The translations under genes and the position numbers were made by a program. Shown here piece after piece: positions 190 to 13,812 of a DNA stretch of 36,351 bases. Each line of letters begins with the position of its first letter. Position 1 is the stretch's first letter. A model generated the notes under the pieces. The model saw only the letters and a list, made by a program, of their open reading frames with translations, made no database searches and was not told the DNA's origin. The stretch comes from Sandaracinaceae bacterium (lineage in GTDB: Bacteria; Myxococcota_A; Polyangia; Polyangiales; Sandaracinaceae): the NCBI GenBank assembly GCA_040218145.1, contig JAVJQK010000013.1:1-36351 (forward strand). The letters are read 5' to 3'.

Positions 190-333
190 CGGTCAGATCC
201 GCGGGGCTGAACACCGATCCAGTCTCGCGCGACGGGAGTAGGGGATTTGGGGCGACGACGCGCAGCTGCTGCCGATGATCAGCTCGACCTCTTCGCCCTG
301 CTGAACCTGACGGAAAACGGAGAGCCGCCGCCC

Positions 334-2646
334 ATGAGCTTCGTGGACGCCTCGCTCGCGGAAGAGACCCGCAAGCGGTACCTGAACTACGCACTCAGCG
401 TCATCACCAGCCGCGCGCTCCCCGATGCGCGTGACGGCCTCAAGCCGGTCCAGCGTCGCATCCTCTACACGATGCAAAAGGACCTGCATCTCCGCCCCGA
501 CGGCCGCTACATGAAGAGCGCCCGCGTGGTCGGTGAGGTGATGGGCAAGTACCACCCGCACGGCGACACCGCGATCTACGACGCGCTCGCCCGCATGGCG
601 CAGGACTTCACCATGCGCGCGCCGCTCGTCGACGGCCGCGGCAACTTCGGCTCGCCCGACGGCGACTCGCCGGCCGCGATGCGTTACACGGAGTGCAAGC
701 TCGCGCCGATGAGCGAGGAGCTGCTGCGCGAGATCGGCCAGCAGACCGTCCCGTTCCGGCCCACCTACGACGGCCAGCTCTTCGAGCCGGTCGTGCTGCC
801 CGCGCGCTTCCCCAACCTGCTGGTCAACGGCAGCCAGGGCATCGCGGTCGGCATGGCCACGTCGATCCCGCCGCACAACCTCGGCGAGGTGATCGACGCG
901 CTGGTCGCGCTCATCGACGACGACAGCCTCGGCATCGTGCAGCTGATGAAGCACATCCGCGGGCCGGACTTCCCGACGGGCGGGCAGGTCGTGAGCACCA
1001 AGGTCGAGCTCCGCGAGGTCTACGAGGCGGGCAGCGGCTCGCTGAAGCTGCGCGGCGAGTGGAAAGAGGAGACGTCGAAGAAGAAGCGCGAGAACCCGCG
1101 CCTCATCATCACGTCGATCCCGTACTCCGTCGTCCGCAGCACGCTCGTCGAGAAGATCGCCGAGATCATCATCAACAAGAAGCTGCCGCACCTGCTCGAC
1201 GTGCGCGACGAGAGCACCGAAGAGACGCGCGTGGTGCTGGAGATCAAGAAGGGCGCCGACCCCGCGCTCGTCATGGCGTACCTCTACAAGCACACCCCGC
1301 TGCAGACGAACGTCACCCTCAACTTCACCTGCCTCGTCCCGACCGATCAGCCCGAGATCGCCGCGCCGGCGAAGCTCGGCCTGAAGGAGCTGCTCCGGGT
1401 CTTCCTCGACTTCCGCATGGAGGTCGTGACCAAGCGGCTCGAGTTCGAGCTGAACAAGCTCCTCGAGCGCATCCACATCCTCGAGGGCTTCATCACGGTC
1501 TTCGACGCGCTCGACGAGACCATCCGCATCATCCGGCGCAGCGACGGTCGCGCCGACGCGGCCAAGAAGATCATCGAGCGCTTCGAGCTGAGCGAGCTCC
1601 AGACGAACGCCATCCTCGAGCTGCGGCTCTACAAGCTCGCGAAGCTCGAGATCCTCGTCATCCGGCAGGAGCTCGAGGAGAAGCGGGCCGAGGCGGAGCG
1701 CATCGAGAAGCTGCTCAGCGACCGCGGCGCGCGCTGGAAGCTCATCCGCGCGGAGCTGCTCGAGCTCAAGAACGACTTCGCCGATCGCCGCCAGACCAAG
1801 GTCAGCGGCTCGGTGGACGAGCCCGAGTACGACGCGGAGGCCTTCATCGTCGACGAGGACCAGGTGGTCCTCATCACGCACCAGGGCTGGATCAAGCGCC
1901 AGGGGAGGGTGACGGACATCTCCTCGACCCGGACGCGCGAGGGCGACGCGGTGATGGACGCGACCGCTGGCTCGACCAAGGCGTCGGTGGCCTTCTTCAG
2001 CAGCCTCGGCAGCTGCTACGTGTGCCGCATCGTCGACATCCCGGCGACCACCGGCTACGGCGACCCGATCCAGAAGCTCTTCAAGCTCGCGGACGGCGAG
2101 CGCATCGTGAAGATGGTGGGCTTCGATCCGCGGCTCCTCGAGGTCCCGGAGCTGGACCCGGACTCGCTCGAGCCGGATCCGCCCTACGCCATCGCGGTCA
2201 CGCGCGGCGGGATGACGTCGCGCTTCTCGCTGCGCGCGCATCGGGATCCGAGCACCCGCAACGGGCGGAAGTACATGCGCCTCAACAAGGGTGACGAGAT
2301 CGTGATGGTGGACCTGTCGGACGACACGATGAAGGTGGCGTGCGCGACCAAGAAGGGCCACGCGCTGCTCACCACCGATGACGAGGTGCCGGTGCTCAAC
2401 GGGCCCGGCAAGGGCGTCAAGCTCATCAAGCTGGCCAAGGGCGACGAGGTCGTCGGCGCGGCGGTGATGAGCGACTCGACCGAGCCGCTCATCGTCGAGA
2501 ACGCCAACGGCAAGCAGTTCGAGATCACTGTGTGGCGCACGGTCGTCGCGCGCGGCGGCAAGGGCCAGCAGCTCTTCAAGCGCGGGACGCTCGAGCGACA
2601 GGTCCCACGCGAGCCGGTCGTGCCCGAGCTGAGCGGAGGGGAGTGA
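334..2646 (+). CDS. parC: DNA topoisomerase IV subunit A (ParC)
   Basis: ParC is the DNA cleavage-reunion subunit of topoisomerase IV, which decatenates sister chromosomes together with ParE. The protein has the winged-helix/tower/coiled-coil core of type IIA enzymes, with the catalytic tyrosine in the AAMRYTE motif, and a C-terminal beta-pinwheel region. Its last blade carries ARGGKG, a degenerate GyrA-box-like motif. The frame is open from a TTG at 247, preceded by GGGAG. The ATG at 334, preceded by GGAGAG, places the catalytic Tyr at residue 118, close to the usual position 120-122, so it is preferred. The TTG start would add 29 residues. The gene stops four bases before parE, so the two are almost certainly co-transcribed. 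Assignment as ParC rather than GyrA rests on the adjoining ParE and the lack of a canonical GyrA box. Confidence 0.9.
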
Positions 2647-2650
2647 GGCG

Positions 2651-4567
2651 ATGGCTGGTTACACGTCGCAAGAGATCACCGTCCTCGAGGGCCTCGAGCC
2701 GGTGCGTCAGCGCCCCGCGATGTACATCGGGGACACGGCGAAGAACGGCTATCACCACCTGCTCTGGGAGGTCGTCGACAACTCGGTCGACGAGGCCATC
2801 AACGGGCACGCCAACACCATCGAGGTCCACCTCGACAAGGACCACAGGGGCGCGACCGTCATCGACAACGGCCGCGGCATCCCGGTCGACGTCCACAAGA
2901 AGTACAAGAAGTCGGCCCTCGAGCTGATCCTCACCACGCTGCACGCGGGCGGGAAATTCGGCCACAAGAACTACGCGGTGAGCGGCGGCCTGCACGGCGT
3001 CGGCTCCTCGGTCGTCAACGCGCTCAGCGTGGAGATGACGGCCGACATCTTCCGCGACCAGCAGCACTACCAGCAGGTCTACTCGCGCGGGAAGCCCAAG
3101 GGCAAGGTCAAGAAGGTTGGCGCGACGCGTGGCAAGCGCGGCACCACCATCCACTTCCGGCCGGACCCCGAGATCTTCGGCAAGAAGCTCACCTACGACG
3201 TCGACGTCGTGAAGAAGCGGCTCGAGGCCAAGAGCTACCTGCACAAGGGGCTCAAGGTCGTCTTCAAGGACGAGAAGTCCGGCGAGCGCATCGAGTTCCA
3301 TCACCCCGGCGGCATCGTCGAGTACCTCGGTCACCTGGTGGAGGAGCGCGGCAAGCGGGCCATCGCGCCCGAGGCGTTCGTGCTCGACAAGGACGACGAC
3401 CACCCGCGCATCGAGCTGGCGCTGACGTGGACCGAGGCGCCCGAGGAGCGGCTGCTCACCTACGCCAACGGCATCCCGACGGGCTCGGGCGGCACGCACG
3501 AGGCGGGGCTGAAGTCGGCGCTGAACCGCGCCGTCCGCGGCTTCATGAAGACGAAGGGCATCAACCCCAAGGGCGTGACCATCTCCGCGGAGGACATCCG
3601 CGAGGGCGTCATCGCGCTGCTGAGCGTCTACGTCCGCGACCCGCAGTTCCAGGGGCAGACGAAGGACCGGCTCAACAACCCCGAGGTCGCCTCCCCGGTC
3701 GAGACCGCCATCCGCAACGCGCTCGAGCACTGGCTGCTCGACAACTCCAGCGTCGGCGAGGCCATCGTCGCGCGCATCGTCACCGCGGCGCGCGCCCGCG
3801 AGGCGAGCCGCGCGGCCATCCAGCAGGTCAAGCGCAAGACCGCGGTCAGCCACCGGCTGAACCTGCCCGGCAAGCTCGCCGACTGCTCGAGCACGAGCCC
3901 CGAGGACAGCGAGCTGTTCCTGGTCGAGGGTGACTCCGCGGGCGGCAACGCCAAGCGCGCGCGCGACCGGAAGACGCAGGCCATCCTCCCGCTCCGAGGC
4001 AAGGTGCTCAACGCCGAGCGCGCGAGCGCGAAGCAGGTCCTGAGCAACAAGGAGCTGAGCGACATCGTCAGCGCCCTCGGCTGCGGCATGGGCAAGGCCT
4101 TCGACGTCAAGAAGCTTCGCTACGGGAAGATCTTCCTGCTGATGGACGCCGACAGCGACGGCCATCACATCGCCACGCTCCTCCTGACCTTCTTCTACCG
4201 GATGCTGCCGGAGCTCATCCGCGAGGGGCACATCTTCCTCGCGCTGCCGCCGCTCTTCCGGATCGACGCGGGCAAGGACACCCACTGGGCGCTCGACGAG
4301 GACGATCGCGACCGGATCCTCGCGGAGCTGCCCGGGAACGTGAAGCCCAAGATCAGCCGCTTCAAGGGGCTGGGCGAGATGAACCCGGACGAGCTGAAGG
4401 AGACCACGCTCGACAAGAAGCGCCGCCGGGCGCTGCGCGTGGTGATCGACGAGGAGCTGCTGACCGACCAGACCATCAACGACCTGATGGGCAAGGACGC
4501 GGCGCCCCGCTACGAGCTGATCATGGAGCACGCGCCGAAGGCCGAAGCCGAAGCGCTCGACGTCTGA
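2651..4567 (+). CDS. parE: DNA topoisomerase IV subunit B (ParE)
   Basis: ParE is the ATPase subunit of topoisomerase IV. The N-terminal GHKL ATPase domain shows [19 protein letters not shown] and GGLHGVG motifs. The central transducer carries GGTHEAGL, and the TOPRIM domain has EGDSAGG and [13 protein letters not shown]. The segments [17 protein letters not shown] and [10 protein letters not shown] resemble Escherichia coli ParE more closely than GyrB. At 638 aa it has the length of ParE and lacks the large GyrB insertion. It starts with ATG four bases after parC and is followed by a strong hairpin, so parC-parE looks like a self-contained two-gene operon. Gene context and residue signatures make the ParE call firm. 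Confidence 0.93.
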
Positions 4568-8754: not shown

Positions 8755-8758
<4 letters not shown>

Positions 8759-9981
8759 GAGCCACCGTACTGTCCACGCTGAGCGTGTTGATGCTCGCCG
8801 CGGGCTGCCAGAGCCCGGTCGTCGGCGCGGCCTGTCGCGGCGACCTCGCGCTCTGTGACGGCCTCTGCGTCGACCTCGAGCGCGACCCGCAGCACTGCGG
8901 CGCGTGCGGGACCCAGTGCGCCAGCGACCAGTCCTGCGTGCTGGGCGCGTGCGTCGGCCTCGCCCTCGATGGCGGCGGCGGCGACGCCAGCGGCGGCGAC
9001 GCGGGCGTGATCGGCGACGGCTCGTTCGCGGACGCCGACGTCACGCCGCGGGACGGCGGACCGCGCGACGGCGGAGACGGTGGCGCCCCGCCCGAGGGCT
9101 GCGACGTGGGCGAGCTCGAGTGCGGCGCGATCTGCGTGCGCCCCGACTCGGACCCCGCGAACTGCGGCGGATGCGGGATCGCCTGCGCGATGGGTGACGT
9201 CTGCGCCGGCGGCGAGTGCACCGACGCGTGTCGGCTGCCGCGCATGACCTGCGACGACCGATGCATCGACACGCGCAGCGACCCCGATCACTGCGGCGGC
9301 TGCGACAACGCCTGCCCGTCGGGCGTGTGCATGGCGGGCGAGTGCAGCGGACCGCTCGCGGGTCACCTCGTGGTCGTCGGTCACGACTATCGCGAGAGCC
9401 GGGCCGACATGAACCGGATCGCGGGCAACGCGGTCTTCCTCGCCCGGCAGAACCCTCCGCGTGTGCTCGTCTACGAAGGCGACGCGCGCCCCGCGGCCAT
9501 CGCCGGCACCGACGCGGCCATCGACCAGGTCGCCGCCCTCTACGGGCGCAGCTGGGCTCGCACCGCGGCGCCGCGCCCCGAAGAGATCCCCTTGATGCTA
9601 CTCGACGCGGACGTGCTGGTCGTCTACGCGCAGACCGACGCGGTCGACGGAGAGCTCCAGCGCCTGTCCCAGGGCCTCGCGCGCTCGCTGACCACGTTCC
9701 TGCAGACGGGCGGCGTCATCGTCGTCTTCGACGGGGCGGGCAGCAACCGCGGCACGTTCCAGGTCGTCACCGGGACGGGCTTCTTCTGGGCCGACTCCCG
9801 CACCGACGTGTCGCGCCGCGTGCTCGACGTGGTCAGCCCCGGCGACGCGGTCGCCCTCGGCGTCCCGATCCGCTACCGAGGCGAGGTCAGCACGGTCCGC
9901 TTCGACACGACGGAGACGACGGTGGTGGTGGACGACGGCGCGGGCGGCCCGGTGGTGATCCACCGCACTGTTCTTCCCTGA
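8755..9981 (+). CDS. Cys-rich repeat lipoprotein with a flavodoxin/GATase-like C-terminal domain
   Basis: The signal peptide ends in the lipobox LAAGC, with Cys18 as the lipidation site. Three copies of a Cys-rich repeat of the form LCxxxCVDxxxDPxHCGxCGxxC occur at about 25-60, 113-150 and 155-190. They are split by a Gly/Asp-rich linker that is probably flexible. Such repeats are common in myxobacterial surface lipoproteins. The C-terminal half (about 200-408) alternates beta strands and helices, for example LLDADVLVVYAQ and FLQTGGVIVVFDG, which suggests a flavodoxin-like or ThuA/GATase-like fold; that is inference. GTG start, overlapping the OmpA-protein stop by four bases. The two products probably act together at the outer membrane. 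The stop codon lies in a tandemly duplicated 19-mer. Confidence 0.78.
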
Positions 9982-12218: not shown

Positions 12219-12256
12219 CGCTCGCGAGCTTACCCACTTTTTTGACGCCGCGATCT

Positions 12257-12309
12257 GCATCGGGCATCGGTGGGTCTCGAAGCGCTTCATGAAGTGAACA
12301 TGGAAGCGC
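12257..12309. promoter_or_regulatory. Cluster of direct and inverted repeats upstream of the zinc-finger parA gene
   Basis: A perfect tandem repeat of GCATCGG (12257-12270) is followed by two overlapping 10-bp palindromes, GAAGCGCTTC (12279-12288) and CTTCATGAAG (12285-12294), and a further GAAGCGC (12303-12309). The result is four GAAG/CTTC tetramers in 28 bp. It lies between the divergent SDR and parA genes, just after a TTGACG -35-like hexamer at 12242. Ribbon-helix-helix partners of ParA proteins (ParG type) bind tetramer boxes upstream of their own operons, so autoregulation by the downstream RHH protein is a reasonable inference. Confidence 0.45.
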
Positions 12310-12402: not shown

Positions 12403-13485
12403 GTGGTTCAGTCGACTTGCAGCGTGTGCTCGCGCGCCTTCGAGGTCCGGTTCCGCTACCAGGTCCGCGAAGAGGCCGGTCAGTTCGTCCACTTCTGCTC
12501 GCAGATGTGTCACCAGCGCGGGCTCCGCTCGGAGGGGCCTCAGTGCTCGGTCTGCGCCAAGAGCTTCGAGCTCGAGTTCCCCTTCCAGGCCGAGGTCGGT
12601 GACGGCGAGCCGCGCTACTTCTGCACGACGCAGTGCAAGACCGCGGCGAAGGCCGGGGTCTTCGGTCTCAACAAGGCGGGCGGACGCGCCTCGGACGGGC
12701 CGCGCCGCATCGCGGTGTTCAACCACAAGGGCGGCACCGGGAAGACGACCACCGCGGTCAACCTCGCGGCGGGGCTCGCCGAGCGGGGCAACCGCGTGCT
12801 CCTCGTCGACGCGGACGGGCAGGGCAACGTCGGGGCGTCGCTCGGCATCCGCGGAGAGCGCACCCTCTATCACGTGCTCGTGGCGGGCGCGCCCGCGGAC
12901 GAGGCGTCGGTGCCGGTGCGCAACAACCTCGACGTGCTGACGAGCAACGAGCTGCTCGCGGCGGCGGAGCTCTACCTCGCCGAGCGCCAGAACCGGCACC
13001 GCATCATGCGCGAGCGGCTGAGCGACCGGGTGACCGGCTACGACGTCGTGGTCCTCGACTGCGCGCCCGCGCTGTCGCTGATGAACCAGAACGCGCTCGT
13101 CTACGCCGACAGCGTCGTGGTCCCCGTCAGCTGCGATTACCTCTCGCTCGTCGGCGTGCGGCAGGTGCTCCGGACGCTCAAGAACGTGCGGCAGCTGCTC
13201 AAGCACGAGGTGAAGCTGCTCGGCGTGCTCCCGACCTTCTTCGACGTGCGCAACAAGATCAGCCGCGAGGCGATCGAGGCGCTGACGGACCACTTCGGCG
13301 AGCGCTGCCTGCCGCCGATCCGCGTCAACACCAAGCTGCGCGAGGCGCCGAGCGCCAAGCAGACCATCTTCGAGTACGCCCCGGACAGCCACGGCGCGCT
13401 CGACTATCTGGCGCTCGTCGAGCGCATCGTGGCGCTGCGGGGCGACGCAGGCGCCCTGGATCGCGCGCCGGCGATGGCGGGCTGA
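12403..13485 (+). CDS. ParA-family ATPase with two N-terminal zinc-finger motifs
   Basis: The C-terminal 260 residues are a ParA/MinD-type ATPase. They contain the deviant Walker A KGGTGKTT (109-116), DADGQGN (Walker A', where DPQGN is usual) and VVLDCAPA (Walker B). The first 80 residues carry two Cys4 units with identical spacing, C-x2-C-x22-C-x3-C (Cys6/9/32/36 and Cys48/51/74/78), each including an aromatic-rich middle. This looks like a tandem TRASH/MYM-like zinc ribbon, which is unusual on a ParA. Such ATPases position DNA or protein cargo by patterning on the nucleoid. The RHH gene follows after 18 nt. No parB or parS is nearby. The start at GTG 12403 is chosen for its GGAGG; GTG 12391 would add four residues. 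Confidence 0.85.
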   Translation: MVQSTCSVCSRAFEVRFRYQVREEAGQFVHFCSQMCHQRGLRSEGPQCSVCAKSFELEFPFQAEVGDGEPRYFCTTQCKTAAKAGVFGLNKAGGRASDGPRRIAVFNHKGGTGKTTTAVNLAAGLAERGNRVLLVDADGQGNVGASLGIRGERTLYHVLVAGAPADEASVPVRNNLDVLTSNELLAAAELYLAERQNRHRIMRERLSDRVTGYDVVVLDCAPALSLMNQNALVYADSVVVPVSCDYLSLVGVRQVLRTLKNVRQLLKHEVKLLGVLPTFFDVRNKISREAIEALTDHFGERCLPPIRVNTKLREAPSAKQTIFEYAPDSHGALDYLALVERIVALRGDAGALDRAPAMAG

Positions 13486-13503
13486 GAGACCGAGGGAGGA
13501 ACG

Positions 13504-13812
13504 ATGAGCGACATCAAGGACGTGCTCGATGGCGACGAGGTGCGGGAGGTCCTGAGCGGGACCTTCTACCGAGACGCCGCCGCGCCGAGCGTGGTCAAGG
13601 CGCCGCGCACGCGCTCCAGGAAGAAGAAGGAAGAGGAGAAGCCGGACCACTACCAGGTGATCTGCATCTCCCTCTACACCGAGGACCTCGAGCGGCTCGA
13701 CCAGAAGGTGAAGCTCCTCAAGGACTCGGGGCACCGAAAGATGAGCCGCAGCGCGCTGATCCGGTACGCGCTCGACACGGCCGACCTCGACGGCCTGCCG
13801 CGGCCGTACTGA
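13504..13812 (+). CDS. Ribbon-helix-helix protein, likely partner of the zinc-finger ParA
   Basis: A 102-residue protein. The acidic N-terminal 30 residues and a basic stretch (about 34-46, RTRSRKKK) look disordered. Residues about 50-95 match a ribbon-helix-helix fold: strand YQVICISLY, helix EDLERLDQKVKLL, then helix SRSALIRYALDTADL. RHH proteins bind DNA as dimers. In type Ib partition systems the ParG-like RHH partner both represses its operon and stimulates the ParA ATPase through a flexible N-terminal arm, which fits this layout. A GGAGGA ribosome-binding site precedes the ATG. The stop codon lies in a 15-nt tandem duplication. Fold assignment is by pattern only; the role is inferred from context. 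Confidence 0.75.
   Translation: MSDIKDVLDGDEVREVLSGTFYRDAAAPSVVKAPRTRSRKKKEEEKPDHYQVICISLYTEDLERLDQKVKLLKDSGHRKMSRSALIRYALDTADLDGLPRPY

Follow-up and report, generated by a model that had tools for sequence, protein, structure and literature searches.

A zinc-finger ParA ATPase and a putative ribbon-helix-helix partner on myxobacterial chromosomes: a candidate partition-type positioning module

Introduction

What would a ParA ATPase that carries two N-terminal zinc fingers, and that is encoded directly ahead of a small ribbon-helix-helix (RHH)-like protein, do on a myxobacterial chromosome? Bacterial chromosomes are thought to rely on ParABS for origin segregation, pairs of ParA and an RHH protein have been described on plasmids and in archaea on the chromosome, and myxobacterial genomes are among the largest bacterial ones. 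Several unusual segregation and division factors of myxobacteria, i.e., PomXYZ, CdbA and BacNOP/PadC, are named in PMC7156744. The locus studied here lies in a 36,351-nt stretch of DNA from a Sandaracinaceae bacterium, referred to as the window; the ATPase is called zfParA. If the reading that we favor is right, a conserved, autoregulated pair of ParA and RHH proteins on many Myxococcota chromosomes would be a bacterial counterpart of archaeal SegAB, and the module would supply a concrete, testable DNA site together with an ATPase partner.

The zfParA ATPase and its zinc fingers

The ATPase gene and its domains are located as follows:

12403..13485, + strand: zfParA, a Soj-class ParA ATPase with two predicted N-terminal zf-FCS zinc fingers (360 aa; open reading frame, SD sequence, Pfam, AlphaFold, Soj folds)
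12418..12510, + strand: predicted zinc finger 1, C-x2-C-x22-C-x3-C (residues 6-36; Cys in 52/52; zf-FCS)
12544..12636, + strand: predicted zinc finger 2, C-x2-C-x22-C-x3-C (residues 48-78; Cys in 52/52, last Cys in 49/52; zf-FCS)
12706..13443, + strand: ParA/Soj ATPase domain with the deviant Walker A motif KGGTGKTT (Pfam, motif alignment, AlphaFold, fold matches)

The gene starts with GTG at 12403, with GGAGG well placed ahead of the start codon, and ends at 13485. Its product matched AAA_31/ParA in Pfam at 1.6e-48 and contains a complete ParA ATPase domain, in which KGGTGKTT is invariant among 52 aligned homologues, drawn from two collections with some overlap; the pLDDT of the AlphaFold model was 86. 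The two Cys units, CSVC-x22-CSQMC and CSVC-x22-CTTQC, share the spacing C-x2-C-x22-C-x3-C. Of the eight cysteines, seven occur in every homologue and the last in 49 of the 52. Zf-FCS (MYM-type) scored above the Pfam cut-off in two stretches, and PF06467 reached 33 bits on the N-terminal region (cut-off 22.4) and matched 28 of 34 family members. Both the C-x2-C-x19-22-C-x3-C spacing and the curated Pfam score of the zf-FCS/MYM/TRASH group were found in zfParA, and the units are predicted to be zinc-binding fingers of the zf-FCS/MYM type. The first-pass annotation had described a full ParA with KGGTGKTT and two identically spaced Cys4 units, which the sequence and Pfam (zf-FCS and AAA_31) bear out, and its proposed check, conservation of the cysteines across homologues, came out in its favor. 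For four relatives from the same family (G001, G003, G006 and G007), the two fingers come as separate zinc-finger search matches, which suggests a longer or altered inter-finger stretch.

When the PDB was searched with a profile of the ATPase, Thermus Soj scored 223 bits, followed at a distance by pSM19035 delta (2oze, 53 bits), SegA (7dut, 49 bits) and ParF (48 bits). The top structural matches of the ATPase were the Soj folds 2bek/1wcv. A tree of ATPase domains split the zinc-finger proteins from the canonical ParA proteins of the same genomes, with a branch support of 83/97. zfParA thus belongs with the chromosomal Soj ATPases and not with the short ParF class of plasmids; type Ib ATPases of the ParF class are short, about 206-220 aa, and zfParA with its 360 aa is not. 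Because profile and fold place it with Soj and the tree sets it apart, the type Ib (ParF/ParG) label under which the locus had been filed fits the gene arrangement but not the ATPase lineage. Canonical Soj/ParA of ParABS is the nearest ATPase class and fold (2bek); the module differs from it in having an RHH-like partner instead of an HTH/CTPase ParB, in the added zinc fingers, and in its position, since within one genome the two occupy different loci and their ATPases fall into different clades.

The RHH partner protein

The downstream gene and the parts of its product are located as follows:

13504..13812, + strand: putative RHH partner protein (102 aa; open reading frame, alignment, AlphaFold, structural alignment, RHH_1 in relatives)
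13531..13569, + strand: conserved N-terminal helix motif, a candidate ParA-contacting peptide (residues 10-22, DEVREVLSGTFYR; alignment, low-confidence helix 10-18)
13570..13644, + strand: linker, basic, disordered and variable (alignment, AlphaFold)
13651..13779, + strand: putative ribbon-helix-helix core (residues 50-92; alignment, AlphaFold, structural alignment)

The gap between the zfParA stop codon and this open reading frame is 18 nt (13485 to 13504), as had been annotated. Pfam RHH_1 matched the window protein below threshold (E 0.065), and weak RHH_1 matches were obtained for 24 of 37 family members, the best at E 0.0065. AlphaFold predicted helices at residues 59-74 and 82-92 with pLDDT above 90, following a beta-like stretch. 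Foldseek returned no significant match for the monomer; among its candidates, whose E-values were not significant, the TraM RHH domain gave the best structural alignment (Z 5.6, rmsd 2.7 over 49 residues). Taken together, the weak RHH_1 matches in relatives, the AlphaFold helices and the TraM alignment make the RHH assignment likely, short of proof, i.e., moderately supported. When the family profile was run against the PDB at E up to 1, none of the chains of known RHH ParBs or nucleoid proteins was matched, nor any SegB.

The family alignment revealed an N-terminal motif, [DE]DEVxxVLRxxFY, followed by a linker that is rich in Lys and Arg but varies in sequence, and then by a core that is strongly conserved, with the consensus HYxVICISLYxEDLxxLDxxVxxLKxxGHRKxSRSALIRxAL. 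No Arg or Lys is invariant within the N-terminal motif, and the linker is basic but variable. The arm described at first reading as basic and probably flexible is basic and predicted to be disordered, with a conserved short helix motif preceding the basic stretch, and the RHH fold predicted with it is retained at the moderate level stated above.

Conservation of the pair

Since it is conserved in the 52 homologues, the zfParA-RHH pair is not a chance association; the RHH gene comes next after zfParA in 50 of them. A scan of species genomes yielded 45 myxobacterial zfParA loci and five distant ATPases without fingers. Independent searches of 329 Myxococcota genomes detected the zinc module in 107, once per genome, and the RHH protein in 72, always as a single copy; in 69 of these 72 the two share a contig and are at most 1.7 kb apart. 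Presence of the RHH gene at orthologous loci had been set as a second check, and adjacency in 69 of the 107 zinc-finger-bearing genomes supports the pairing without being universal.

The RHH protein was undetected in 37 of the 107, many of them in family f27, so zfParA can have another partner. Four f27 loci that were read contained no RHH gene downstream of zfParA, and a conserved putative membrane protein follows zfParA in all four. At locus L119, whose zfParA clusters with those of f27 in the tree, zfParA, RHH and a related membrane protein stand in a row; most simply, RHH would be the ancestral condition and f27 would have lost it. The putative membrane protein, of ~480 aa and without a Pfam match, is encoded after zfParA in the RHH-less loci (L105:1407-2858, L106:1029-2471, L107:3787-5190 and L108:4271-5713) and after RHH in L119 (2461-4053), and may be an alternative partner in the module. 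One further locus, L120 (G331:C178), has an RHH gene with no zfParA detected alongside, because the contig is misassembled or because the ATPase gene has been lost.

Plasmids were searched as a source of the pair. No RHH relative was found across 72,556 plasmid records, and no plasmid ParA matched zfParA above 60% identity; on these grounds a plasmid origin of the pair was rejected. Plasmid ParAs from Nostoc, Acaryochloris and Pseudodesulfovibrio are among the nearest to zfParA (L147:1534-2618, L148:1438-2651 and L149:1498-2602), and each overlaps a small downstream gene for a hypothetical protein of ~120-135 aa. Common descent of RHH with these small proteins was rejected, the similarity being only weak, with the one from Pseudodesulfovibrio faintly similar to the RHH family.

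The upstream repeat array

Two elements precede zfParA in the window:

12242..12247, + strand: TTGACG, a -35-like box (38 nt from the array, fixed in most loci with both)
12280..12306, + strand: predicted RHH operator or parS-like array with a 12-bp period, AAGCGCTTCATG AAGTGAACATGG AAG (enrichment, spacer, consensus)

When the 200-nt stretch preceding zfParA was read for every locus, a repeated element emerged, AAGYRCTT-N4. With at most one mismatch, AAGYRCTT-N4-AAG or its complement was present in 33 of 53 zfParA upstreams compared with 33 of 2189 background windows (1.5%), and with zero mismatches in 24 upstreams compared with 3 of 2189; these counts overstate independence, as the 53 include close relatives, but the sites nonetheless occur in families f1, f3, f4, f6, f8 and f10. 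The spacer is 4 nt in 23 loci, while every other spacer from 0 to 15 nt was seen in 0 or 1 locus. The aligned arrays gave the consensus AASCRCTTCNNNAAGYRCTTCNNNAAS, again with a 12-bp period. In most loci with both elements, the first palindrome starts 38 nt downstream of the TTGAC box, as it does in the window (12242 to 12280), which would put the array near the presumed transcription start of zfParA. The window array has AAG at 12280, 12292 and 12304, corresponding to about three repeats. A sigma-70 consensus scan of the window called no full promoter. The array was unrecognized in about 20 of the 53 upstreams, and the RHH-less loci L105-L109 and L114 had no array match upstream of zfParA.

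Genome-wide searches with 15-, 20- and 21-base patterns gave counts close to those of the controls; in the window's own genome the 15-mer occurred 34 times compared with 41 for the control, and the 20-mer 5 times compared with 10 per strand. The additional sites examined in G019, G039, G046 and G049 fall in one conserved coding region, which by eye we take to be dihydroorotate dehydrogenase, and were attributed to chance; the same applies to additional sites in G000, where two of the three examined lie in likely coding frames. The array is essentially one per genome, at the promoter of the zfParA-RHH module itself. We predict that it is the operator of the module, and possibly also a centromere.

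Genomic neighborhood

The window also contains a pair of topoisomerase genes:

247..2646, + strand: topoisomerase IV-like subunit A, parC-like (start codon provisional; NCBIfam)
2651..4567, + strand: topoisomerase IV-like subunit B, parE-like (NCBIfam)

In 21 loci, type IIA topoisomerase genes, parC-like and then parE-like, are located directly upstream of zfParA on the same strand. The end of parE is roughly 80-150 nt from the start of zfParA in the tightest loci, with an own promoter-like region between them; in the window, ~7.8 kb of other genes separate the parE-like gene from the pair. Because the products score below the NCBIfam gyrase cut-offs, and a separate gyrB above cut-off was found in all but one of 14 genomes (in the window's genome on another contig, C22), topoisomerase IV is their likely identity. 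This linkage is missing in the f12 and f27 genomes tested. One of the intervening stretches of the window, 8755-9981, encodes a protein of 408 aa that is rich in Cys, matches the STIG1 family (PF04885) in three stretches, and is kept in several related loci.

A canonical parB is encoded elsewhere in all 14 genomes tested, with the best match in the window's genome (G000) on another contig (C35). In G315 it lies 11 kb from the zfParA locus and in G001 and G006 about 88 kb, but in G061 the distance reaches 1.6 Mb; over complete genomes closeness to parB was non-significant by our own estimate from coordinates, and only some genomes hint at a position of the locus near the origin. The surroundings had been described as ordinary chromosomal genes with no parB. 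The lack of an adjacent parB is correct, but "ordinary" passes over the parC-parE genes in the same window.

Discussion

We propose that zfParA and its neighbor constitute an autoregulated chromosomal ParA/RHH positioning module of the partition type, consisting of a zinc-finger Soj and an RHH adaptor, a reading that draws on sequence and on analogy and to which we give an even chance. From the features described above we infer that RHH dimers would bind the AAGYRCTT-N4 array cooperatively and, once bound, would repress the operon and build a small nucleoprotein complex. ATP-bound zfParA dimers would bind the nucleoid, the RHH N-terminal motif would stimulate their ATPase, and the RHH-bound cargo would be moved or held in place on a ParA gradient, with the zinc-binding fingers as an added targeting or anchoring contact. 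The cargo would most likely be the module's own chromosomal locus, which is beside topoisomerase IV genes in many lineages; next in line would be a protein cargo, for example topoisomerase IV or a complex on the nucleoid. If the cargo is the own locus, the module would work alongside canonical ParABS as an accessory system for segregation. It is conceivable, although we consider it doubtful, that this amounts to a second, Myxococcota-specific segregation system parallel to ParABS, in which a single parS-like array by the topoisomerase IV genes couples locus positioning to sister decatenation.

The partition-type reading is favored by the single-copy, phylum-wide conservation, the Cys and ATPase motifs, the array and its lack of a match in RHH-less loci, the parC-parE genes, the Soj class by profile and fold, the distinctness from canonical ParA, and the precedents of SegAB and delta/omega. 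The single evident array per genome with its few repeats in the window, unrecognized arrays, RHH-less genomes, lost topoisomerase linkage and a closeness to parB that is not general count against it. The open-licence full-text papers searched contained no description of a zinc-finger ParA-RHH pair. The module, which much of the myxobacterial phylum has conserved, probably serves segregation or positioning and is probably undescribed as such; the novelty first claimed for the pair stands within that literature, and the positioning role claimed with it is retained as a proposal.

Similar pairs help to define what is new. TP228 ParF/ParG (type Ib) likewise combines a ParA with an RHH protein encoded directly downstream (50/52 here) and a promoter repeat array, for which binding is predicted here. 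In contrast, ParF is a 206-aa ATPase with 48 bits by profile, compared with the 360 aa of zfParA, and the arginine-finger-like motif that ParG reportedly carries in its N-terminal tail has no invariant basic counterpart in the RHH N-terminal motif. In SegA/SegB of the Sulfolobales, a chromosomal ParA ATPase is closely followed by an RHH protein, with palindromes upstream of the operon (PMC12284271, PMC9178275), and SegB binds these palindromes (PMC12284271). The statement that ParA and RHH pairs are usually found on plasmids had overlooked this archaeal chromosomal case (PMC12284271), although the chromosomal location reported for the present pair is upheld. SegA differs from zfParA in having no zinc fingers and in a distant ATPase (7dut 49 bits, Thermus Soj 223), and SegB in having many chromosomal sites as opposed to the one evident array here. 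The delta/omega system of pSM19035 (Streptococcus pyogenes) includes a ParA without HTH, a small RHH partner that also has an N-terminal arm, and promoter-overlapping repeats; its RHH-ParB activates ParA and binds arrays of heptads that overlap its own promoters, full activation requiring at least four contiguous repeats (PMC9499535). It is, however, plasmid-borne, its repeats measure 7 bp where the period here is 12 bp, it lacks zinc fingers, and its ATPase scores 53 bits (2oze). The present module resembles SegAB and delta/omega in the order of its genes, the type of partner, the N-terminal arm and the array at the promoter, and departs from them in ATPase class, in having zinc fingers, in the 12-bp period of the array and in its topoisomerase neighbors. 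By this analogy, the mode of working would resemble known ParA/RHH partition, with the zinc fingers as a new targeting part.

The main alternative, which we hold tentatively, is a regulatory pair with no DNA cargo, in which RHH would be essentially an autorepressor and adaptor, and zfParA a MinD/ParA-type switch that positions or regulates a protein cargo reached via the zinc fingers; topoisomerase IV and a polar or membrane complex are examples. A single array per genome, located at the module's own promoter, is consistent with this, and with about three repeats in the window, compared with the at least four needed by pSM19035 ParB, the array is perhaps only an autoregulatory operator. In addition, zfParA persists without RHH in 37 genomes, with the conserved putative membrane protein next in four such loci, and many orphan ParAs move protein cargo (PMC9178275). 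On the other hand, the RHH N-terminal motif and basic linker resemble those of RHH partition adaptors, and RHH is found almost only beside zfParA, both of which are at odds with a regulatory pair.

It is improbable that the RHH protein is a nucleoid-associated protein of the CdbA type, which would organize the chromosome by broad genomic binding with assistance of the ATPase. CdbA of Myxococcus xanthus is an RHH nucleoid protein important for chromosome segregation in this myxococcal species (PMC7156744), and SegB binds many chromosomal sites (PMC12284271). However, the array motif has no genome-wide excess over control, the family profile matched no PDB chains of known RHH ParB or nucleoid proteins, and homology to CdbA was rejected because no sequence relation was found. 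CdbA binds c-di-GMP and many sites, and the passages on CdbA that were consulted describe no ParA neighbor. Finally, a functionless remnant of a partition cassette from a plasmid or mobile element, on which pairs of ParA and RHH are common, is very improbable given the plasmid search results and the vertical single-copy conservation across families, with the catalytic and Cys residues all kept.
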